Source: Fusobacterium ulcerans
GTDB taxonomy: Bacteria; Fusobacteriota; Fusobacteriia; Fusobacteriales; Fusobacteriaceae
DNA length: 64,000 nucleotides
Assembly (NCBI RefSeq): GCF_003019675.1
Contig: NZ_CP028105.1
Location: 2,124,282-2,188,281 of the forward strand
Direction of reading: 5' to 3'
Positions 12,954 through 41,464 of the stretch are shown here, piece by piece. Made by a program: the position numbers and the translations under genes. Every line of letters starts with the position of its first letter. Position 1 is the stretch's first letter. Under the pieces are notes generated by a model. It made no database searches. It worked only from the letters and a program-made list of their open reading frames with translations, and had not been told where the DNA came from.

Positions 12954-14918
12954 ATGTGTGTTTGGGAAGCTGGGGTTCCTAAATTAGGGGTAACCGTAGA
13001 AAATGAGGGAATTAATTTTGCTATATTTGCTAAAAATAAAAAGAAAGTAGTTTTGAATATTTATAGTTCAGGTTCAGATTTAGCTCCTAAAAAAAGCTTT
13101 GTTTTAGATCCGACTATGAATAAAACAGGAAATATATGGCATATTTATTTAAAAGGTGCTTCTGCAAAGACTTTATATACTTGGAAATTAGATGATTCTC
13201 CTGAATTATTAGACCCATATGCTTTATCATATACGAACAATAAAAATTATTCAAGAAGAAAAAGTATAGCTGTGAAAAAAGATCATATTAGAAAAAAGCA
13301 TTTAAATAGAGAGTTAGAAGATACAATTATTTACGAGGTACACATAAAACTTTTTACACAAAATTTTAATTCGATGGTAAAATTTCCAGGAACTTATAGT
13401 GGATTTATGGATAAAATACCATATTTAAAAGAATTGGGAATAACAGCTGTGGAATTTCTGCCAGTATATGAATGGGATGATTTTACAGGAAATACAGGAA
13501 TAACTAATGGAGCTAAATTAAAAAATGTGTGGGGATATAATCCTATAAGTTTTTTTGCACCAACTAAGAAATTTTCAAAAAATCAAACTTTGGATTCAGA
13601 TAGTGAAGTAGTTGAATTTAAAGAATTGGTAAAAGCTCTCCATGAACATGGGATAGAAGTGATTCTTGATGTGGTGTATAATCACACTGCTGAAGGTGGA
13701 AATGGAGGAAAAATATATAACTTTAAGGCAATGGATAATAAGACTTTTTATATGCTGGAAAATAAAGATACTCAATATAAAAATTATTCAGGCTGTGGAA
13801 ATACTTTTAATTGTAATAATAAAGTAGTAAAAGATGTGATTGTAGATTCTTTGAGATACTGGTATCTTGAAATGGGAGTAGATGGTTTTAGATTTGATCT
13901 GGCTTCTATTCTTGGAAGAGGAGAAGATGGCCAGTGGAATGAAGTTTCTCTTTTAAATGAACTTGTGCAGGATCCTATTTTATCACATTGTAAATTAATT
14001 TCAGAAAGCTGGGATCTTGGAGGGTACTATGTAGGAGATATGCCAGCTGGATGGAGTGAATGGAATGGAAAATATAGAGATGTTGTAAGAAAATTTATAA
14101 AGGGAGAGTTTGGGTTGATTCCTGAACTGCTAAAAAGAATATTTGGAAGTCCTGATATTTTTAAAAGAAATAACAGAGGACCAATGAGTAATATAAATTT
14201 TGTCACTTGTCATGATGGTTTTACCATGTGGGATCTTGTTAGTTATAATAACAAGCATAATCTTAGTAATGGAGAAAATAATAATGATGGGGAAAATAAC
14301 AACAATTCATATAATTATGGGGTAGAAGGTGGAACTGACGACCCTGCTATTCTTGAGCTGAGAAAAAGGCAGATTAAAAATATGTTTTTAATACTTTTTA
14401 TTTCTCAGGGAGTCCCTATGCTTCTTATGGGAGATGAAATGGGAAGAACCCAGTTTGGAAATAATAATGCTTACTGCCAAAATAACCGTTCTACATGGGT
14501 GGACTGGGAAAGAGGTTCAAAATTTTCTGAAATAACCAACTTTGTAAAAAATATGATAAAAATTCGTAAAAAGTATTCTATTTTTAGAAGAAAAAATTAT
14601 TTAGAACTTAATGAATGTGAAAATTGTGAGGTTTCTCTGCATGGAGTGAAACTTAATACACCAGATTATTCATATTATTCATTGAGTATAGCATTTGTTT
14701 TACATGATACTGAAACAGATACATCATTTTATGTAGCTTTAAATTCTTATCATGGCGAATTAACATTTGAGCTTCCAATTCTTCAAGAAAAAAAATGGCA
14801 TTTGTTAGTTGATACTTCCAAGACAGAGAAGGAAAATTTTAGAGAAGATACAAAAGCTTTAATAGATAGAAAATATCTTGTAAAACCAAGAAGTTCTATA
14901 ATTTTAATAAGTAAATAA
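12954..14918 (+). CDS. glgX: Glycogen debranching enzyme / isoamylase-type GH13
   Basis: A 654-residue GH13 enzyme with an N-terminal CBM48-like domain (about 1-100), the catalytic barrel and a C-terminal beta domain. The four conserved GH13 regions are visible: DVVYNH (about 239-244), DGFRFD with nucleophile Asp315, SESWD with acid/base Glu351, and CHDG with His420-Asp421. The overall pattern (VWGYNPISFFAPTKKF, MLLMGDEMGRTQ.GNNNAYCQ) is that of GlgX-type debranching enzymes acting on alpha-1,6 branches of glycogen. It is a single gene between its own promoter and terminator; no other glycogen genes are in the window. Confidence 0.9.
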   Translation: MCVWEAGVPKLGVTVENEGINFAIFAKNKKKVVLNIYSSGSDLAPKKSFVLDPTMNKTGNIWHIYLKGASAKTLYTWKLDDSPELLDPYALSYTNNKNYSRRKSIAVKKDHIRKKHLNRELEDTIIYEVHIKLFTQNFNSMVKFPGTYSGFMDKIPYLKELGITAVEFLPVYEWDDFTGNTGITNGAKLKNVWGYNPISFFAPTKKFSKNQTLDSDSEVVEFKELVKALHEHGIEVILDVVYNHTAEGGNGGKIYNFKAMDNKTFYMLENKDTQYKNYSGCGNTFNCNNKVVKDVIVDSLRYWYLEMGVDGFRFDLASILGRGEDGQWNEVSLLNELVQDPILSHCKLISESWDLGGYYVGDMPAGWSEWNGKYRDVVRKFIKGEFGLIPELLKRIFGSPDIFKRNNRGPMSNINFVTCHDGFTMWDLVSYNNKHNLSNGENNNDGENNNNSYNYGVEGGTDDPAILELRKRQIKNMFLILFISQGVPMLLMGDEMGRTQFGNNNAYCQNNRSTWVDWERGSKFSEITNFVKNMIKIRKKYSIFRRKNYLELNECENCEVSLHGVKLNTPDYSYYSLSIAFVLHDTETDTSFYVALNSYHGELTFELPILQEKKWHLLVDTSKTEKENFREDTKALIDRKYLVKPRSSIILISK

Positions 14919-31808: not shown

Positions 31809-34031
31809 TTATATGTCTTTAATTTTTTCAGAAATATATCTGCTTGGACTCATCTCTTCTTTCCAGTTAGGGTCAGAAATATTAAAATTCTTACCATATA
31901 TTTCAAGAAGCCTCTTTAAAGAATTTCTTGGAATATATGTATCAATTCCCATAAACTTAATCTCTTTCAATGTAGAGTTTGACAGCTTGTAAGCCGAAAT
32001 AATTCCATTCTTATCTTCAAGATAGCAAACTACCTTATCATCTTCTCTGTCAAAAAGAAATATCTCAATTTCAATTCCTTTGTATTCATATTTGATATTT
32101 TTAAGTCCTTCATTTTTTAAGCTCAACGAAGAAATTCTTTTAAATCCTTCACTTTCTATATCTATTATGAATTTAGGAATAAGTTCTTCCTTCATTATTC
32201 CAATGTCAAAGTTAATGTCATGTCCTATAAAATTATTTTCTCTGATTTTTCCAAGAAGAGTTCCAAATTCAAGCCAATATTTTACACCTGTTTTTTGAGA
32301 AGTTTTATTCAAAATTTCAAGGACTTCCTTACCTGTTAAAAGTAAATTTTCTCCTTGTTTTTCCTTCTTTATTGAATCTTTTCTCTTTTTATTATAGATT
32401 CTATTTCTTATATATTTCATTGAAAGATCAAAAACTACTTTGAAAAATATATTTACAAGAATGATCATTACAGATATTGCTGCTGCCGCCCCAATATCTC
32501 CAGCATCATTTTTACTTATCATCATTACAGAAATAAGTCTTGTTTTTGTTGTATAAAGAAAAATAACTGCTGAAATAGTTATCATAGAATTTATAAAATA
32601 ATATGAAAAGCTTTCAAGGATAGAATCTATTGATAAAGGAATAATAACTTTAAAAATAGTTCTGTACCATGGAACTCCCATGATATTAGATATAGTTTCA
32701 TACTCACTGTCTAAAGTTTTTAATCTTGCAGTTATAGCTAAAAAAGGTGTTGCAAAGAAATGAACTATATTTGCAAGTATAATTATTCCAAAGCTTCCAT
32801 AGAGGAAATTCAGAATATTATCTTTAGAGTTGAAGAAGAAAATATATGCAAGTCCTATTGTCAATCCAGGGAGAGCATTAGGAAGGATAGAAAGAAAATA
32901 TCCTATTTTTCTTACAACTATGTAATCCTTTTCTCTTTCAATCATATATGCAGTAAGGAAGCATAAAAAAGTACCAAGTATTGCAGAGAAAACTGAGACA
33001 AGAATACTGTTCCCGAATATTCTCCAGATACTTTCACCCATTATTGTAAAATTATATGATTTAAAAGATAAAGTCATATCATAAGGCCATGTTTTTACAA
33101 GAGAAGCCAAAATAACTATTCCGAAGAAAGATACTATAATCAAGCTTAAAATATAATTGAAAAGTTTAAAAAAGATATCTCTTGCTTTATTTTCTTTTAT
33201 AATATATTTAGTAGATTTTGAATCTATTTTCGAACTTTTGCTTTTAATGACAATATCAAACACAAAGGCAATAAAAGCAGGGATTATAAGTAGTATTCCA
33301 ACAGCTGATCCCATGGAAAAATTTTGCTGCCCTATTACTTGTTTAAATATATCAGTAGCAAGGACATTATAATTTCCTCCAACTACCTTTGGAGCTCCAA
33401 AGTCTGTAAAGCTTAAAGTAAAGCCAGAGAAAAAACAAGTGATCAATGTATATTTAATGTTAGGAATTGTTATTGTGAAAAATTGTTTTAATCTGCATAT
33501 TCCCATTATTTCTGCCATTTCATATTTTCTATAATCCTCTGAATCAAAAGCTAGTACCAGCATAAAGAAAAGCACTGGGAATATAAAGATAGTTTCTGCA
33601 AAAACTATTCCCCAGAATCCATATATAGAAATTGAAAGATCAAAAGCTTTAGTAATAATTCCCTGTCTTCCAAAAAGGTATATAAGAGCAATACCATGTG
33701 TCATAGTAGGAGAAAACAAAGGTAAAAGTGCAATTCCTTTTAAAAGAGATTTTCCTCTCAAATTACTTCTGTTTATTCCATAAGAAAAAAGGAAAGCCAG
33801 TATTATTGTAAGAATAGTTACAGTTATAGAAACTTTCAAACTGTTAGTAAGAGAACTTGCTGTAACTGGGTTGCTGAAATATTCAGCAAAGTTTTTTAAA
33901 CCTATATAATTACCATTCTTTCCTTGAAAAGCTTTTATAAAAAGATTGAAAATAGGAAAAATTATGGAAATAACAAGAAAAAGAACTAAAACTAAAGAAA
34001 GCATTATTTTTATTAATTTATCTTTTTTCAT
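31809..34031 (-). CDS. ABC importer double permease fused to a LicD-like transferase domain
   Basis: A 740-residue fusion. Residues 1-550 are a two-module ABC permease with about 12 helices, of the layout seen in the 2-aminoethylphosphonate PhnU2-type and iron/thiamine importers. The first EAA-like loop region follows YRKYEMAEIMG, the second LDSEYETISNIMG. After a Lys-rich linker, residues 560-740 form a LicD-like nucleotidyl/phosphotransferase domain: YWLEFGTLLGKIRENNFIGHD, then FDIGI. LicD enzymes move phosphocholine from CDP-choline to glycans. The middle acidic residue of the usual LicD Asp cluster is Asn here. There is no internal start codon at the junction, so one polypeptide is expected, with the transferase in the cytosol. 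GGAGA precedes the ATG. Confidence 0.82.
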   Translation of the reverse strand: MKKDKLIKIMLSLVLVLFLVISIIFPIFNLFIKAFQGKNGNYIGLKNFAEYFSNPVTASSLTNSLKVSITVTILTIILAFLFSYGINRSNLRGKSLLKGIALLPLFSPTMTHGIALIYLFGRQGIITKAFDLSISIYGFWGIVFAETIFIFPVLFFMLVLAFDSEDYRKYEMAEIMGICRLKQFFTITIPNIKYTLITCFFSGFTLSFTDFGAPKVVGGNYNVLATDIFKQVIGQQNFSMGSAVGILLIIPAFIAFVFDIVIKSKSSKIDSKSTKYIIKENKARDIFFKLFNYILSLIIVSFFGIVILASLVKTWPYDMTLSFKSYNFTIMGESIWRIFGNSILVSVFSAILGTFLCFLTAYMIEREKDYIVVRKIGYFLSILPNALPGLTIGLAYIFFFNSKDNILNFLYGSFGIIILANIVHFFATPFLAITARLKTLDSEYETISNIMGVPWYRTIFKVIIPLSIDSILESFSYYFINSMITISAVIFLYTTKTRLISVMMISKNDAGDIGAAAAISVMIILVNIFFKVVFDLSMKYIRNRIYNKKRKDSIKKEKQGENLLLTGKEVLEILNKTSQKTGVKYWLEFGTLLGKIRENNFIGHDINFDIGIMKEELIPKFIIDIESEGFKRISSLSLKNEGLKNIKYEYKGIEIEIFLFDREDDKVVCYLEDKNGIISAYKLSNSTLKEIKFMGIDTYIPRNSLKRLLEIYGKNFNISDPNWKEEMSPSRYISEKIKDI

Positions 34032-34039
34032 GAGATCTC

Positions 34040-35005
34040 CTAAATACTATTTTTTTCATTTAATTTAATGTAAAGAGAATCGTTAATTTTAAGATTTAAC
34101 TTTTCTTTTTCTTTAGAAAGTATATCAATGTAGATATTATCTCCAAATAGTTCTAATGTAATTCTATAAAAAGCGCCTCTAAATTCAATATTTTTTATAA
34201 CACCTCTATGTGTTTCTTCTTTTTCCTCTGTAAAATATTCTACATCCTCAGGTCTTACAGTATATATATCATTGTTTTTATCAGTGATAAAATTTATTTT
34301 CCCTATAAAATCGGCTACAAATATATCTTTAGGTTTACTGTAAATTTCTTCAGGTGTGCCAAATTGAACTATTTCTCCACCATTGATAATAGCAATTTTA
34401 TCTCCCATTGTAAGAGCTTCCTCTTGATCATGAGTTACCATAATTGTAGTTATTTTTAATTTCTGCTGAATTTCTCTTATTTCTTTTCTCAGGGATTCTC
34501 TTACTTTTGCATCTAAAGCTGACAGAGGTTCATCAAGTAACAAGATATTAGGTTCAAGAGCTAGAGCTCTGGCTAGAGATACTCTTTGCTGTTGACCTCC
34601 ACTCATTTCATCTGGATATTTAGAAATTATATGATCAAGTCCTACCATTTTAAGAACTTCCATAATTTTTTCTTTTCTCTGTTGTTTATCTTTTATTTTC
34701 TTTTTTAATCCGTATTCTATATTTTCAAATACTGTCATATTTGGAAAGAGAGCATAGGATTGAAATACCATACTTAAATTTCTTTGAGAAGGTTCCAAAG
34801 TTGTTATCTCTTTTTCATTAATTAAGATATTTCCAGAATCAAGCTTTTCAAGTCCAGCTATTATACGAAGCAGAGTTGTTTTACCACATCCGCTTGGACC
34901 TAAAAAACATATAAATTCTCCTTTTTCTATTTCCAAATCAATACCTTTTAAAACTTCTACTTTATTAAATTGTTTTTTTACTTTTTTTATAGCTAAGTAA
35001 GGCAT
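34040..35005 (-). CDS. ABC transporter ATP-binding protein (2-aminoethylphosphonate/spermidine-iron type)
   Basis: A 321-residue importer ATPase. Walker A is GPSGCGKTT, the Q-loop is VFQSYALFP, the signature is MSGGQQQR, Walker B is ILLLDEP and the switch His is in VTHDQ. A C-terminal TOBE-type regulatory domain (about 240-321) is present. It pairs with the permease 8 bases downstream and with the substrate-binding lipoprotein upstream. The substrate class is inferred from the binding protein, not from this subunit. Confidence 0.92.
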   Translation of the reverse strand: MPYLAIKKVKKQFNKVEVLKGIDLEIEKGEFICFLGPSGCGKTTLLRIIAGLEKLDSGNILINEKEITTLEPSQRNLSMVFQSYALFPNMTVFENIEYGLKKKIKDKQQRKEKIMEVLKMVGLDHIISKYPDEMSGGQQQRVSLARALALEPNILLLDEPLSALDAKVRESLRKEIREIQQKLKITTIMVTHDQEEALTMGDKIAIINGGEIVQFGTPEEIYSKPKDIFVADFIGKINFITDKNNDIYTVRPEDVEYFTEEKEETHRGVIKNIEFRGAFYRITLELFGDNIYIDILSKEKEKLNLKINDSLYIKLNEKNSI

Positions 35006-35007
35006 TT

Positions 35008-36030
35008 TTATTCTCCTTTACCATATCTTATTTCCCATTCTTTAAGCAATCTTTCCCTATTATCTGAAGCCCATTTGAAATCTATTTTGGCTAATTTTTC
35101 TTTGAAATCTGCTGGATAACCCTCAAGTTTAGTAGTGACTCCTTTATATGAAACCAGTCCAATATTTTTAGAATATTCTTCCATCATTTTTTTAGAAAGA
35201 GCCCATTTAATAAAATCAACAGCTTCTGGTTTGATTGTATCTTTTTTTACAAGAGCAATTCCTTCCATATCCCATCCATATCCTTCAGCAGGCAGAATAG
35301 TAACTATAGATTCATTAGTTTTTCCAAGTCTTATACTTTCACTGTCCATTCCAATTCCAATTAATTGTTCCCCTTGCATAGCCATTTTAACTGGAGCACT
35401 TCCTGAATGAGTATATTGAGATATGTTTTTATGAAGCTGATCCATGTATTCCCATGCTTTTTCTTCACCCCAAATACTTATCCATCCTAATATTGTAAGA
35501 TAACCTGTTCCAGAAGAAGCTGGATTAGGCATAACTATTTCTTTAGAATACTTCTCATCAAGAAGATCTGTATATGAAGTTGGAATAGGTAAATTTTTAG
35601 CTGCAAGTTCATATTTATTAGCTGTAATAGCAGATGTCCAAGCAGTCATACCTGTCCATTGAGGTTTTTCACTGATAGAATCAATATATGTAGGATCAAT
35701 ATTTGTCAACCATTCATTATTCAATTCAGATAATCTTCCTTCTTTAGCAAGATCAATAAGGTTGATACTTGCCATACCCCATAAGACATCAGCTACAGGA
35801 TTATTTCCTTCAGCAATTACTTTAGCAGCAATAGCTCCTTGAGAATCTCTTATTATATTAAGCTCTACATTGGGGAAATCTGCTTTGTACATTTCAATGT
35901 AATGATTTAGATATTCTTCTTCAAGTCCAGTATAAACATTTAAGACAGTTTTATTTTCTTTACTCCCACATCCAAAAAGAAATGCTGAAAGAATAAAAAG
36001 AACAGAAATTTTTAATAGCTTTTTCATCAT
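35008..36030 (-). CDS. Substrate-binding lipoprotein, 2-aminoethylphosphonate (PhnS-like) type
   Basis: A 340-residue solute-binding protein. A signal peptide with lipobox FLFGC (lipidated Cys21) anchors it in the membrane. The Fbp-like fold shows LNVYTGLEEEYL near the N-terminus and a MPNPASSGTGYL segment, which I associate with the 2-aminoethylphosphonate-binding PhnS2 family; iron(III)-binding relatives are the main alternative. The start lies 7 bases after AAGGAG. It shares one base with the stop of the upstream nucleotidyltransferase, so transport and activation genes are tightly coupled. Confidence 0.85.
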   Translation of the reverse strand: MMKKLLKISVLFILSAFLFGCGSKENKTVLNVYTGLEEEYLNHYIEMYKADFPNVELNIIRDSQGAIAAKVIAEGNNPVADVLWGMASINLIDLAKEGRLSELNNEWLTNIDPTYIDSISEKPQWTGMTAWTSAITANKYELAAKNLPIPTSYTDLLDEKYSKEIVMPNPASSGTGYLTILGWISIWGEEKAWEYMDQLHKNISQYTHSGSAPVKMAMQGEQLIGIGMDSESIRLGKTNESIVTILPAEGYGWDMEGIALVKKDTIKPEAVDFIKWALSKKMMEEYSKNIGLVSYKGVTTKLEGYPADFKEKLAKIDFKWASDNRERLLKEWEIRYGKGE

Positions 36031-36758
36031 TAATTTTCTCCTTTTTCTAATAATTTAGGGTAAATAGTTTCCATTACTCTATTTAATTGAAACTCATCAT
36101 CTATTTCAGACCAGATAATACCATCTACTCTTTTACAAAATATTCTTCTTTCTTTTGCTATTTTTTCTATACAATATTCATAACCTAATTTAAGATTTTT
36201 TTCATCTTCATATTTTTTGAACATAAGCTGGCACAATTCATTAGATAATTTTTGTAATCCAGTAAGTTCACCATATTCTCCTTTGATCTCAAAAAGGTTG
36301 AAAGTAAGTTTTCCAATACTATTGTCTATAATTTCATAGTAATAATCATCAGACATTTTTTTATCTTCTGATAAAAGAATAGTATCTTTTTCAGGAGAGG
36401 TAATTAATATATCAAGACAGTTTTTTTCATAGATAAGATCCCCTTCTAAAAGCAGAATATCTTCATCACCAATTAATTCTTTAGCACAATAAAAACTTCC
36501 CATACTGCTTGTATTAGCATAGTTGCTGTTTTTTATTGTAACAACACTGCTGTATTTTTTCTTTAAAGGTTCAAAAAAATAATCTAAATGTCCTGTTACT
36601 AATATTATTTTTTTAATTCCTGAGTCTAAAAGCTTCTCTATTGATCTTTCAATAAGAGATAATCCATTTATTGCTAAAAAAGGTTTTGGAATCTCATCAT
36701 TAGTTATTCCTCTGAGTCTCGTTCCCATACCTGCTACAAGTATTACTGCTGTTTTCAT
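36030..36758 (-). CDS. LicC/PntC-like CTP-dependent nucleotidyltransferase
   Basis: A 242-residue sugar-nucleotidyltransferase-fold enzyme. The catalytic signature AGMGTRLRGITNDEIPKPFL is intact (Gly-X-Gly-X-Arg, then Pro-Lys). NYANTSSMGSF, LLEGDLIYE and the late WSEIDDEFQL match the layout of CTP:phosphocholine cytidylyltransferase (LicC) and of phosphonate cytidylyltransferase PntC. Given the adjacent 2-aminoethylphosphonate-type importer and the LicD domain, the likely product is a CMP-activated aminophosphonate or phosphocholine (inference). It overlaps the upstream HTH gene by four bases. Confidence 0.82.
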   Translation of the reverse strand: MKTAVILVAGMGTRLRGITNDEIPKPFLAINGLSLIERSIEKLLDSGIKKIILVTGHLDYFFEPLKKKYSSVVTIKNSNYANTSSMGSFYCAKELIGDEDILLLEGDLIYEKNCLDILITSPEKDTILLSEDKKMSDDYYYEIIDNSIGKLTFNLFEIKGEYGELTGLQKLSNELCQLMFKKYEDEKNLKLGYEYCIEKIAKERRIFCKRVDGIIWSEIDDEFQLNRVMETIYPKLLEKGEN

Positions 36759-37696
36759 AAATCTTTCTCCTTTTTATATAAACTTTTGACTATATTATTT
36801 TTAATATATTCATATTGTTTTTGATTATCTATTTCTCCCCAAATATTTTCTTTGGAGGATATGCATTTTAGATCAGAAAAAATATTTTTATCTAAAAAAC
36901 TATATTCATAAAAAAATAATTTATTTTCTATTTGTGTGAATTTATCCAACATTTTTAAGTAGGAACTATATTTTAATTTGCTGATTCCTATAAGCTCACC
37001 TGAAATTTTTTCAAGGCTGTATTTTCCTTTTGAAATATTTAAAAGTTCATTTTTTTTAGTAGTAACATAGAGAGAATCTTCTTTGTCTGATATGGAAGTA
37101 TCTATCATAGTTACATTCTTATCTTTTGAGTTCAGCAAAAGAGATATTATATTTTCTTCGAAAATAAGGTCCCCTTCTAAAAGGATAAAATCTTCCTGTA
37201 AATGTTTTCTTAAAAGATAGAGAGAGTACATATTTCCTGTGGTCTTATATTTTTTATTTTCTATTATTTTAAGGTTAGAATATTCTTTAGCTAGTTTTTT
37301 ATAATATTCTGCTTTGTATCCAGCAGCAATTATTATTTTATCTATATTATATTTTGATAGTAGTTTTATAGTTCTTTTAATGAGAGTTGAATTTAAAATT
37401 TCAAGAAATCCTACTGGTTTATCAAAATCTAAAGTTTCTCCAGCAGCCAAAATAACCGCAGTTTTTATTCTATTATTATTAGACTTCAAAAGCTCATTTC
37501 CAGAATCTGTAATAATATATTTAGTTTCTCTGTATGAAATATTTTCTTTAATAAGGCAGCCCTCGTTTAAAAGAGAATTAATATATTTATTAACAGAACC
37601 AAGAGAAATATTTAGATATTCAGATATTTTTCTCTGACTTATTATGCTGTTCTCATGTATAAGAGATATGATTTTTTCTTTTATCTGAATCACCAC
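36755..37696 (-). CDS. Winged-helix protein fused to a degenerate nucleotidyltransferase domain
   Basis: A 313-residue protein. Residues 1-65 are a MarR/Lrp-like winged helix (SQRKISEYLNISLGSVNKYINSL). Residues 78-313 have the same fold as the next gene product, but the catalytic loop reads AAGETLDFDKPVG, lacking the Gly-X-Arg of active enzymes; FILLEGDLIFE and WGEIDNQKQY are kept. It may therefore be a sensor that binds an activated ligand and regulates the operon, or a weak enzyme. The start is uncertain: GTG 37696 and GTG 37693 both overlap the AAGGTGG, and no ATG is available. Confidence 0.75.
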   Translation of the reverse strand: MVIQIKEKIISLIHENSIISQRKISEYLNISLGSVNKYINSLLNEGCLIKENISYRETKYIITDSGNELLKSNNNRIKTAVILAAGETLDFDKPVGFLEILNSTLIKRTIKLLSKYNIDKIIIAAGYKAEYYKKLAKEYSNLKIIENKKYKTTGNMYSLYLLRKHLQEDFILLEGDLIFEENIISLLLNSKDKNVTMIDTSISDKEDSLYVTTKKNELLNISKGKYSLEKISGELIGISKLKYSSYLKMLDKFTQIENKLFFYEYSFLDKNIFSDLKCISSKENIWGEIDNQKQYEYIKNNIVKSLYKKEKDL

Positions 37697-37709: not shown

Positions 37710-37750
37710 TGAACGATTATATTTTTACACTGTGAACGATTTTTGTCAAG
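37710..37750 (-). promoter_or_regulatory. Promoter and TGAACGATT direct repeats of the phosphonate/LicD operon
   Basis: TGAACGATT occurs at 37710-37718 and 37733-37741 (23-base period). On the minus strand a perfect TTGACA (37745-37750) lies just 5' of the outer repeat, and AT-rich -10 candidates (TAAAAA, TATAAT) fall between the repeats. The layout suits an operator for the HTH protein encoded first in the operon (inference). The rest of the 301-base divergent region is AT-rich, with GAACAAA variants at about 37843 and 37912. Confidence 0.5.
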
Positions 37751-37997: not shown

Positions 37998-39344
37998 TTG
38001 GAAAGTATAAGATCAATAATCAATTTTGTAAATAATTTGTTGTGGGGGAAAAATATATTAGTTGTTATGTTGATAGGTACAGCTGTATATTTTACTTTTA
38101 AGACAAAATTTATGCAATTTAGATTATTTGGAGATATAATAAGAATATTGAAGGGAAATGGAGATGAGAAAAGAGATGGAATCAGCTCATTGGAAACATT
38201 TTTTCTTGGAACAGCTTGCAGAGTAGGAGCAGGAAATATCTCAGGAGTTGTTGCAGCAGTTTCTATTGGAGGACCAGGAGCACTTTTCTGGATGTGGCTG
38301 GTAGCACTTCTTGGAGCAGCAACTTCTTTTGTTGAATCAAGTCTTGCTGTTATGTATAGAACTAAAATAAAAGATGGTGAATACCAGGGAGGAACTCCTT
38401 GGATTATAAAAAAAAGACTTAATATGAAATGGCTTGGGGCTATATATGTAGTTGCTTCTATTATATGCTATATAGGAGTTATACAGGTAATGTCCAATTC
38501 AGTAACAGAATCAGTAGTCAGTGCATATGGATTCAATCCTAAGATAATAGCTGTTGTATTGGCTCTCGTTGTAGGTTTGATAATATTTGGAAAAAGTAAA
38601 AAAGATAAAATAATATTAGCACTTAATAAGATAGTTCCTGTAATGGCTATCATGTATCTTTTGGTAGTTATTTATGTTATTATTACTAATCTGACAGGAA
38701 TTCCAGCAATGATAGGGAATATATTTTATCAGGCCTTTGGAGGAAAAGAATTCTTAGGTGGAGCTGTAGGTGGAATTATAATGCAGGGTGTAAGAAGAGG
38801 ATTATTTTCTAATGAGGCTGGAAGTGGAAATTCAAACTATGCAGCAGCAGTGGTTGATATAGATGAACCAGCTAAGCAGGGAATGGTACAGGCTTTAGGT
38901 GTTTTTGTTGATACTCTTATAATATGTAGTGCTACAGCATTCGTTATTCTATTAGCTGATAAAGATGTAGTAAATGGACTTACAGGAATGACTCTTTTTC
39001 AAGAAGCATTAAAAAATCATATTGGATGGATTGGGATACCTTTTACTGTAATTGTCTTATTTTTCTTTTCTCTTAGTACAATATTGGGAGTTACATATTA
39101 TGGGAAAAATGCTATGAATTTTATAAGCTCAAAGGCAATTGTAAAAGAAGTATATCATGTAGTAGTGGTTATTATGGTATATATAGGTGGAATTGAGCAA
39201 AATTTCTTCGTTTGGTCTCTGGCAGATTTTGGATTGGGAATAATGACAGTAATTAATATATTGTGTATTATACCTATTTCAGGAGAGGCTTTAAATGAAT
39301 TGAAAAAATATGAAATAAAATTGAAAAGTAAAAAGAGAGCCTAA
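37998..39344 (+). CDS. AGCS family sodium:alanine/glycine symporter
   Basis: A 448-residue amino-acid:cation symporter with about 11 helices. Family hallmarks are GTACRVGAGNISGVVAAVSIGGPGALFWMW, the GGTPW segment, and MQGVRRGLFSNEAGSGNSNYAAA. The start is TTG, 8 bases after AGGAGG. It is divergent from the phosphonate/LicD operon and convergent with the two-component genes, so it could serve either neighbouring system or neither. It imports small neutral amino acids by family analogy. Confidence 0.92.
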   Translation: MESIRSIINFVNNLLWGKNILVVMLIGTAVYFTFKTKFMQFRLFGDIIRILKGNGDEKRDGISSLETFFLGTACRVGAGNISGVVAAVSIGGPGALFWMWLVALLGAATSFVESSLAVMYRTKIKDGEYQGGTPWIIKKRLNMKWLGAIYVVASIICYIGVIQVMSNSVTESVVSAYGFNPKIIAVVLALVVGLIIFGKSKKDKIILALNKIVPVMAIMYLLVVIYVIITNLTGIPAMIGNIFYQAFGGKEFLGGAVGGIIMQGVRRGLFSNEAGSGNSNYAAAVVDIDEPAKQGMVQALGVFVDTLIICSATAFVILLADKDVVNGLTGMTLFQEALKNHIGWIGIPFTVIVLFFFSLSTILGVTYYGKNAMNFISSKAIVKEVYHVVVVIMVYIGGIEQNFFVWSLADFGLGIMTVINILCIIPISGEALNELKKYEIKLKSKKRA

Positions 39345-39354
39345 AAGCTCTCTT
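39333..39354. terminator. Bidirectional terminator between the symporter and response regulator
   Basis: AAGAGAGC pairs with GCTCTCTT across a 6-base loop. It overlaps the symporter stop codon, with T-rich tails in both directions. Confidence 0.8.
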
Positions 39355-39994
39355 ATTTTTTCCATGAATACTCGTTTCTAGGTCTTCCAATTTTTCCATA
39401 AATAATTTTCAAGTCGACCATTTCTATTTCAACAAGATAGTTCATATATTTATTTACTGTTTGAGAAGCAAGACCAGTAGCTTCTGATATTTCCTCAATT
39501 GTAATGTATGAATTAATTTGTTTCATTTTATTTTCAATTAATGAAATAGTGTTGACACTTATTCCTTTTTTATAATCCCCATACTTTTCTTTTTTTGCTG
39601 TAGAAATTTCAGGAAAAGATTCTGTTGTTTTTTTCTTATTAAGGTGTACATTTACTCTCGAGTATAAATCAAGAACTTTAATAGGTTTGATAGCAAAATC
39701 ATCAGCTCCAGCAAGGAAAAATTCCTCAGCAATGTTTTCTAATCCTTCAATAGTAAGAGCTATTATAGATACATTTTCATTCATCTGTCTTATTAATTTT
39801 ACTCCAAGTACTCCATTTATATAAGGCATATGATAATCAATTATTATGATATCAAGCTCTTTAGTACTCACTATTTTTAAAGCTTCTTCCATTGAAAGTG
39901 CTGTGTACACTTCCCAATCCTTCATAAGAAAAAATTCTGAGACAGCAAAGATAATATCCTTAGAATCATCTATGATAAGAATTTTATTTTTCAT
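39353..39994 (-). CDS. Response regulator with CitB/DctR-like HTH output domain
   Basis: A 213-residue regulator. The receiver (about 1-120) has the acidic pair IDDSKD, phospho-acceptor Asp in IIIIDYHMP, the Thr in IIALT and the Lys in AIKP. The C-terminal helix-turn-helix (about 165-200: ITIEEISEATGLASQTVNKYMNYL, then GKIGRPRNEY) resembles CitB/DcuR-type regulators of organic-acid and amino-acid uptake. It overlaps the kinase gene by 11 bases. Likely targets are the adjacent symporter and the divergent gamma-glutamyl gene cluster (inference). Confidence 0.88.
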   Translation of the reverse strand: MKNKILIIDDSKDIIFAVSEFFLMKDWEVYTALSMEEALKIVSTKELDIIIIDYHMPYINGVLGVKLIRQMNENVSIIALTIEGLENIAEEFFLAGADDFAIKPIKVLDLYSRVNVHLNKKKTTESFPEISTAKKEKYGDYKKGISVNTISLIENKMKQINSYITIEEISEATGLASQTVNKYMNYLVEIEMVDLKIIYGKIGRPRNEYSWKK

Positions 39995-41381
39995 TTCCTA
40001 AAACCTCCCCCTGCATAACGATATATACTCCAATCCCTCTTTTTTTTCTATTTTTAATAAATATTTTAGATTTATGTTCTTCCATAACTGTTTTTACAAA
40101 ATTTAACCCCACTCCACTGGAATTTTTAGTTGAAAAACCATTTATAAAAGCATTTTCAAGTTCTTTTTCAGACATTCCTTTTCCATAATCTTCAATTTTT
40201 ATAAGTACAAATTTTTTATAATCTTTTATAGTAAGCTCAATTTTGTTATTTTCATATTCTGTAAAAGCTTCATAAGAATTTATAATTAAATTAGTGATAG
40301 CTCTTGAAAAAACTATTTTATTAACTTTTATTTTTCTTCCAGTGCAGTAATTGTTATAGATTAAAAATTCAATGCACTTATGTGTTGAAAGATAAGAAAG
40401 AATAAAATTGAATACTTTGTTTATATCAATAGGATTTTTGTGTGTATCCCTTAAAATTTCAGATACCATTATATTACATCTTTCCAGAGATTTTTCAATT
40501 CTGTTATAATAATCTTTTTTCTTTTCATTTTCTTCCTGCATATCAAGTATTTCAATAAGAGTCCCCATAGAAAATAATGGAGTTTTTAAATCGTGAACTA
40601 AATATTGAATTTCTTTTAGATATCTATTTTCAACTTCTTGTAATTTCAAATCTGAAAGAGCTTTTGTCATATCTTTTTCTTTTTCATATATATTCTGCCT
40701 TCTCTCCTGCTCGAAAAATACAAGGAGGAGAGTTATGGAAAATATAAAGAAAAGGATAAAGAATAAAAAACCAATAAGGTTTAAGATGTTATCAGCTTCC
40801 ATTAATGAAGAAATATTTTTTAGATCAAAAAAGATTTCTCCAGTTGATTTATAGTCCAATACAGAAAAATATTTTGTAATATCAAGCCATTGGATACCAG
40901 TAAATACAAGGAGAAGAACAACATTTCTTTTAAATAAACTAATATTCTTAAAACGATTGCTTGAATGAAATGCTAGATAAATCATTTCAAGTATAGATAC
41001 TTTACCAAAATAATAATCCATATCATAGTATACTTTGTATATTATAAAATAAATTGCCTGAATTATCAACATTCCAAAAATAACCTTTAAAGTATTATTC
41101 AATTTACCATTTATTTCTATATCGATAGAATCCATGAGGAGGAAAACAGAAAAAAATATTGGAAATGATTTTATTGTATTTAGAAAAACTAAACCAAATG
41201 CAGCATGGAGAAGATATTCTTTATCCCAAAAGTCTATACTTTTTTCTAAAGAATCATAAATATCAAAATTTTTATATAATAAAAAATTAGGCAGGACAAT
41301 ACTTATTAAAACCATTAGTATTCCTAATGAAAGTTCTGTTTTATGAATTTGAATATGAAATTTTTTCCCCAAAATTTTCAT
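39984..41381 (-). CDS. Membrane sensor histidine kinase
   Basis: A 465-residue kinase with about six to seven N-terminal membrane helices (about 1-230), a short coiled linker, and a kinase core. The core shows the H-box LVHDLKTPLFSMG, N-box NLIINSYEAF, G1 DYGKGMS and G2 GVGLNFVK. No PAS, HAMP or large extracellular domain is evident, so sensing is probably within or through the membrane part. Two ATGs are close; the second (41381) is properly spaced from AAGGGG. It forms a pair with the response regulator and is divergent from the gamma-glutamyltransferase cluster. Confidence 0.9.
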   Translation of the reverse strand: MKILGKKFHIQIHKTELSLGILMVLISIVLPNFLLYKNFDIYDSLEKSIDFWDKEYLLHAAFGLVFLNTIKSFPIFFSVFLLMDSIDIEINGKLNNTLKVIFGMLIIQAIYFIIYKVYYDMDYYFGKVSILEMIYLAFHSSNRFKNISLFKRNVVLLLVFTGIQWLDITKYFSVLDYKSTGEIFFDLKNISSLMEADNILNLIGFLFFILFFIFSITLLLVFFEQERRQNIYEKEKDMTKALSDLKLQEVENRYLKEIQYLVHDLKTPLFSMGTLIEILDMQEENEKKKDYYNRIEKSLERCNIMVSEILRDTHKNPIDINKVFNFILSYLSTHKCIEFLIYNNYCTGRKIKVNKIVFSRAITNLIINSYEAFTEYENNKIELTIKDYKKFVLIKIEDYGKGMSEKELENAFINGFSTKNSSGVGLNFVKTVMEEHKSKIFIKNRKKRGIGVYIVMQGEVLGNEK

Positions 41382-41464
41382 GATCATTCCCCTTAAATCT
41401 AGAAATTATTAATTTCTTCTTTATGATTACAAATTAAATTAATGATACCACATTTTAAGTAAAA

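Follow-up and report, generated by a model that had tools for sequence, protein, structure and literature searches.

Here we report that a gene of Fusobacterium ulcerans encodes an ATP-binding cassette (ABC) importer permease that continues, without a break in the reading frame, into a domain of the LicD type. The gene lies at 31809..34031, on the minus strand, of a 64,000-nucleotide stretch of contig NZ_CP028105.1 (the window, part of a closed 3.54-Mb genome), and is the last of a five-gene operon that seems, from its gene content, to import and activate 2-aminoethylphosphonate (AEP) for surface decoration without making it. The fusion is a true in-frame one, conserved and unusual. We favour a reading in which the operon serves import-based phosphonyl tailoring and the tail binds the donor without catalysis and serves to regulate or tether the importer, and give this reading as a whole a probability of about 0.48; its pathway part, import-based tailoring, is fairly strong.

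The fusion is a single open reading frame of 740 codons, and the plus strand of the same interval is rich in stops. A first-pass annotation had described a 740-residue permease-LicD-like fusion here without stating the strand, and that description is borne out. Residues 1-545 (32397..34031) form a complete two-module permease, as it had also claimed, with two stretches of BPD_transp_1 in a Pfam scan and a match to the NCBIfam model PhnU2 (TIGR03262) over residues 8-545 at 638.8 bits, above the curated cut-off of 593.25. A basic linker, residues 546-561 (32349..32396), follows within a segment in which 10 of 27 residues (536-562) are lysine or arginine, and leads to a small LicD/FKRP-type nucleotidyltransferase-fold domain from about residue 562 to 740 (31812..32348). 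By the positive-inside rule the linker would be cytosolic, and linker and tail are taken as the cytosolic end of the permease. The block FGTLLGKIR...FDIGI, on which the LicD assignment had been based, is present, and Pfam LicD (PF04991) passes its gathering cut-off of 22.6 bits both in the full protein (residues 579-617, 25.1 bits) and in the isolated tail (30.0 bits), with an alignment that spans just profile positions 2-40 of 227.

Among 98 Fusobacteriota genomes, permease matches at E<=1e-60 occur in 17 and the full two-part protein in five: this genome, three of the same genus (G007, 95%; G001, 94%; G002, 90%) and one of a second genus (G076, 68%). Permease and tail join without interruption in all five, with open frames of 743-745 codons. 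Homologues with the same architecture, which the annotation had suggested seeking, therefore exist in two genera, and assembly error or frameshift, which it had named as grounds for rejecting the fusion, is ruled out. The near permeases of G022, G079 and G036, the last from the same family as this genome, end without a tail; in a tree of 12 permeases these three and the fused ones make up one group with no resolved inner order. Beyond the phylum the fusion was not found in the plasmids and the one scan of genome contigs that were searched: 446 plasmid records match the fusion query and none covers 80% of it, and the contig scan gave two matching loci, both permease only. In the literature searched, no title or abstract opening of a listed paper described this permease-LicD fusion or import-based phosphonyl tailoring.

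The annotation had argued that separate translation of the tail was unlikely, as no internal methionine stood at the junction. An in-frame ATG does occur at codon 538 in this genome, where the other four fused genomes have none, and another at codon 556 in G076; two genomes have a Shine-Dalgarno-like AAGGAG at codon 559, but no start that could be used follows it. Because the internal ATGs are not conserved and the AAGGAG lacks a start, separate translation has no conserved support.

A model of the window tail, built with AlphaFold2 from an alignment with 25 relatives from viral contigs (28 loci, less one duplicate and two short ones), has a predicted local distance difference test score of 86.3 and a predicted template modelling score of 0.83. 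FKRP is its top solved match by Foldseek (E 4.7e-8), and VIA aligns 167 residues of the two at a root-mean-square deviation of 3.4 and Z 15.5 (next kind of structure, 12.3). The tail is thus predicted to be a complete small LicD/FKRP-type nucleotidyltransferase fold, in agreement with the comparison that had been proposed for it. Profile score, relatives and fold match together rule out a chance LicD-like stretch.

The metal-binding motif of the tail is altered. Residues 605-609 of the fusion (32205..32219) read D-I-N-F-D where the other LicDs examined have D-x-D-x-D; the motif is DxNxD in four of the fused proteins and DxNxN in that of G076, so that none of the five retains DxDxD. A HMMER alignment sets Asn607 opposite Asp362 of FKRP, with the numbering transferred from Gly344-Gly345-Ser346 of the FKRP paper (PMC6965139). 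All 25 viral relatives have Asp at all three positions, and the 44 distinct motifs of non-fused loci, found with a pattern that allowed D/N/E at the first scored place and D/N/E/S at the other two, are DxDxD throughout; the loci L103, L113 and L150 escaped the pattern and are DxDxD by eye. Deviations are thus confined to the fused proteins. The surroundings are otherwise kept: of the 11 alignment columns with conservation of 90% or more, the window tail retains 10. It also has the glycine loop, both Arg597 and Asp605, and an acid, Glu656 (32064..32066), at the third acidic site (h[DE]h), where 22 of the 25 viral relatives have Asp. Asp360, Asp362, Asp364 and Asp416 are reported to be critical for FKRP activity, with D362A and D364A assayed (PMC6965139).

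The nearest full-length standalone relatives of the tail, in G080, have an intact DxDxD and adjoin a protein that joins a nucleotidyltransferase to an aminotransferase. At L118:5236-7056 one protein combines a nucleotidyltransferase with a class I/II aminotransferase; not far from it lie two small LicDs (L118:10208-10927 and 13188-13865), the closest standalone relatives of the tail. Five viral contigs (L128, L131, L137, L138 and L143) encode a small LicD fused to a CTP_transf_like cytidylyltransferase domain, and in three of them to a family 2 glycosyltransferase (GT2) domain as well, a single chain for donor synthesis, transfer and glycosyl transfer.

The ratio of nonsynonymous to synonymous substitution (dN/dS) in six within-genus pairs is 0.016-0.080 for the tail and 0.070-0.131 for the permease, and is lower for the tail in each pair. 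Comparisons with G076 give 0.14-0.27, at synonymous sites that are near saturation. The within-genus values indicate strong purifying selection, and the tail is therefore maintained; decay is ruled out. A kept ligand-binding shell, a lost metal ligand and strong constraint make up the pattern to be expected of a ligand-binding pseudoenzyme, a pattern with which altered catalysis is also compatible.

The operon consists of five minus-strand genes, adjacent ones overlapping or separated by 8 bases at the most, in the order winged helix-nucleotidyltransferase, nucleotidyltransferase, PhnS2-like, PhnT2-like and fusion. The ABC ATPase (34040..35005) scores 438.9 bits against PhnT2 (cut-off 457.7) and the solute-binding protein (35008..36030), whose N-terminus resembles a lipoprotein signal (LFGC), 373.1 bits against PhnS2 (cut-off 392.75). 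These are the best-scoring models for the two subunits, and the same shortfall recurs in G076, whose fusion permease reaches 654.3 bits against PhnU2; since the two scores miss their cut-offs, we call the importer PhnSTU2-like.

The first-pass annotation had named no substrate and neither of the two upstream genes, which we now identify as PntC-like and winged helix-PntC-like, with AEP as the probable substrate. The nucleotidyltransferase at 36030..36758, with an intact GMGTRL...PKP nucleotide loop, has as its closest solved structure the PntC/aminotransferase protein 6pd1 (E 1.3e-44; LicC 1jyk, 8.1e-14). Matches to PntC at E<=1e-60 occur in all five fused genomes and in none of the 93 others, and the only two PntC/LicC-like genes of this genome at E<=1e-12 are both inside the operon. 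Glu104 and Glu196 of Treponema denticola PntC are reported to be positioned to contact the AEP amine, and LicC has Asp there (PMC6697681); read from HMMER alignments, both the PntC-like enzyme and the winged-helix protein of the window have Glu at the two positions. In G001 the PntC-like gene (L052:11059-11786) lies in two frames, in a stretch where other genes are also cut; the split may reflect sequence quality or real loss. A second PntC-like gene of G076 (L124:7977-8648) has an altered nucleotide loop (KMSTK) and is a possible degenerate copy.

The first gene of the operon (36755..37696) encodes a protein that joins a winged helix to a PntC-like domain with its nucleotide loop deleted, as it is in all four orthologues and in three winged-helix/nucleotidyltransferase relatives from other genera; these features make the protein a probable ligand-sensing regulator. 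Upstream, at 37710..37739 on the minus strand, a candidate operator, TCGTTCA-N16-TCGTTCA, lies beside a TTGACA hexamer. The two direct copies, their spacing (23 bases) and the hexamer are invariant in four genomes, in each of which the exact pair occurs once, at the operon promoter; the pair is absent from G076, whose cassette has no winged-helix gene. A regulon search found near matches to the pair elsewhere to be rarer than a reversed control pattern yields. The count from a promoter scan (43 found, 39.2 expected) is not above chance and carries no evidential weight for that reason.

Proteins of 594-598 residues that join a winged helix to a loop-less nucleotidyltransferase are also encoded at L120:8976-10757, L121:7627-9411 and L123:5342-7138, the first with a choline kinase domain; they may form a family of pseudo-nucleotidyltransferase regulators of zwitterion tailoring. 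The relative in G066 carries a choline kinase domain and adjoins an EamA importer and a nucleotidyltransferase. Next to the operon in the window lie an AgcS-type symporter (37998-39344) and a two-component pair (39353-41387), in an order kept in G007, G001 and G002, and Rfam and tRNA scans gave no matches. The G076 cassette is part of a polysaccharide locus, with genes for family 9 glycosyltransferase (GT9), Kdo/WaaP-type kinase, GT2 and DegT-type sugar aminotransferase.

None of the 98 genomes has a phosphoenolpyruvate (PEP) mutase above the TIGR02320 cut-off, although the control genomes all fell below it too, leaving the search without a true positive control. The five fused genomes have no match at E<=0.001, and weak matches occur in three genomes, all of one other genus. 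It is because of this absence that we read the operon as import-based phosphonyl tailoring. This genome also has a second, tail-less PhnS2/T2/U2 set, with PhnS2 and PhnU2 above cut-off, which adjoins phosphonoacetaldehyde hydrolase (PhnX, 347.2 bits, cut-off 220) and AEP transaminase (PhnW, 565.7 bits, cut-off 400.8); that set belongs to a catabolic AEP locus, and we take the fusion operon to be distinct from it. The operon has no kinase, and an ordinary phosphocholine lic locus is ruled out.

Based on these observations, we propose that the PhnS2/T2/U2-type importer would take up AEP or a close analogue, that the PntC-like enzyme would convert it to a cytidine monophosphate (CMP) conjugate, and that a LicD-type transferase would attach it to a surface glycan. 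In the Fusobacterium-like genomes the attaching enzyme is probably a separate canonical LicD (two in G000, one in G001, two in G002, three in G007). The LicD-fold tail most likely lacks transfer catalysis and may bind the activated donor or a partner that uses the donor, adjusting or localising import by trans-inhibition or docking, and the winged-helix protein with its degenerate PntC-like domain may sense the same ligand at the level of transcription. A more specific version, in which two pseudoenzymes derive from the two enzymes of the pathway, the LicD tail, its donor-binding shell kept and its catalytic metal site incomplete, reading CMP-phosphonate to gate uptake and the pseudo-PntC on the winged helix reading the same ligand to control transcription, would give feedback on import, activation and decoration alike; it is one we hold tentatively and think rather unlikely as a whole.

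Several points weigh against the proposal. Neither Pfam nor a search with the tail sequence (E<=0.001) detected a further LicD in G076, so that any LicD-mediated attachment of AEP in that genome would have to be by the fused domain. The tail retains the first Asp and has an acid, Glu, at the third acidic position, and asparagine is able to coordinate Mg. The PhnS2 and PhnT2 scores below cut-off mean that the substrate may differ from AEP. Both modules of PhnU2 lie in one chain, so there would be one tail per transporter, unlike the paired regulatory domains of MetNI and ModABC (PMC10710835).

The points on G076 and on the retained acids and Asn bear on whether the fused domain is instead an active, if unusual, LicD-type transferase (Asp605, Asn607, Asp609, Glu656) that couples import and transfer in one membrane complex, as the first-pass annotation had proposed; this is the main rival, and we consider it rather unlikely. 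The complete LicD/FKRP fold and the kept glycine loop and Arg597 also fit such an enzyme, as does the fusion of close small LicDs to cytidylyltransferase domains in all five viral-contig proteins scanned, some with a GT2 domain. It is opposed by the Asn that replaces the Asp362 equivalent in five of five fusions and the Asp364 equivalent in G076, residues reported to be critical in FKRP (PMC6965139), and we favour a non-catalytic binding role of the tail over it. For the same reason the first-pass claims of a transferase and of substrate channelling are not supported as they were put, a regulatory or docking role fitting at least equally well; what survives of the coupling it proposed is an importer of a small organophosphorus compound joined to a LicD-fold domain, with the PntC-like enzyme that would activate this compound in the operon.

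We regard as improbable, at about the same level, two further explanations. The tail could serve for docking, with an active LicD or the PntC-like enzyme as its partner at the importer, so that substrate would be channelled although the tail itself catalyses nothing. FKRP is reported to act as an oligomer with an acceptor site drawn from two subunits (PMC6965139), and canonical LicDs are encoded elsewhere in the four Fusobacterium-like genomes, but G076 has none. Alternatively, importer and PntC-like enzyme could act on another organophosphorus compound (phosphoethanolamine, phosphocholine or a sugar phosphate). Besides the two subunit scores, the solved structures that best match the binding protein, named as binding iron compounds or Fe3+ and, in one case, pyridoxal-5-phosphate, agree with this; the permease, which exceeds the PhnU2 cut-off, and the Glu rather than LicC-type Asp at the amine-contact positions speak for AEP. 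That the tail is an assembly join or a decaying passenger is scarcely credible, the sole point in its favour being that the fused proteins lack an Asp which is elsewhere invariant, set against five genomes in two genera with no stops and a tail more constrained than the permease in every within-genus pair.

The operon suggests that phosphonate surface decoration may proceed by scavenging rather than biosynthesis, a route that would be overlooked when gene clusters are mined with PEP mutase as the anchor. It also supplies an example, amenable to testing, of an enzyme-derived domain on the permease of an ABC importer, and of two degenerate enzymes, possibly both ligand sensors, in one operon.

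Known AEP importers include AepXVW, AepP and AepSTU (PMC8316502). The PhnSTU2 transporters (TIGR03261-03265) share with the operon a one-chain, two-module permease, an ABC ATPase and a solute-binding protein, a build similar to that of AepXVW, an importer whose role with AEP has been characterised; the window permease differs in its 179-residue LicD-fold tail, and the binding protein and ATPase in scoring below cut-off. The Pnt pathway of Treponema denticola and Atopobium rimae, which runs from Ppm through PntC to a LicD-like protein (PMC6697681), likewise sets a PntC-like cytidylyltransferase near a LicD-type domain, whereas in the fusion operon an importer replaces biosynthesis and there is no PEP mutase. 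With the lic1 choline system (LicA kinase, LicB importer, LicC, LicD) the operon has in common the logic of import, cytidylyl activation and LicD, to which the choline-kinase protein of the related genome G066, with its neighbouring EamA importer and nucleotidyltransferase, can be compared, but it has no kinase, its importer is of the ABC type, and its LicD-fold domain sits on the permease and lacks DxDxD. The FKRP/LicD ribitol-phosphate and phosphocholine transferases share with the tail the nucleotidyltransferase fold, glycine loop, Arg and third acid, and differ from it in that the tail is small, fused to a transporter, and has Asn for the second Asp (and in G076 for the third). Finally, MetNI and ModABC also have a cytosolic domain on an ABC importer, and we propose that the fused tail similarly senses a cytosolic ligand; their trans-inhibition domains belong to the ATPase, with the transported substrate bound at a dimer interface (PMC10710835), whereas the tail is on the permease, in a single copy and with a fold derived from an enzyme.
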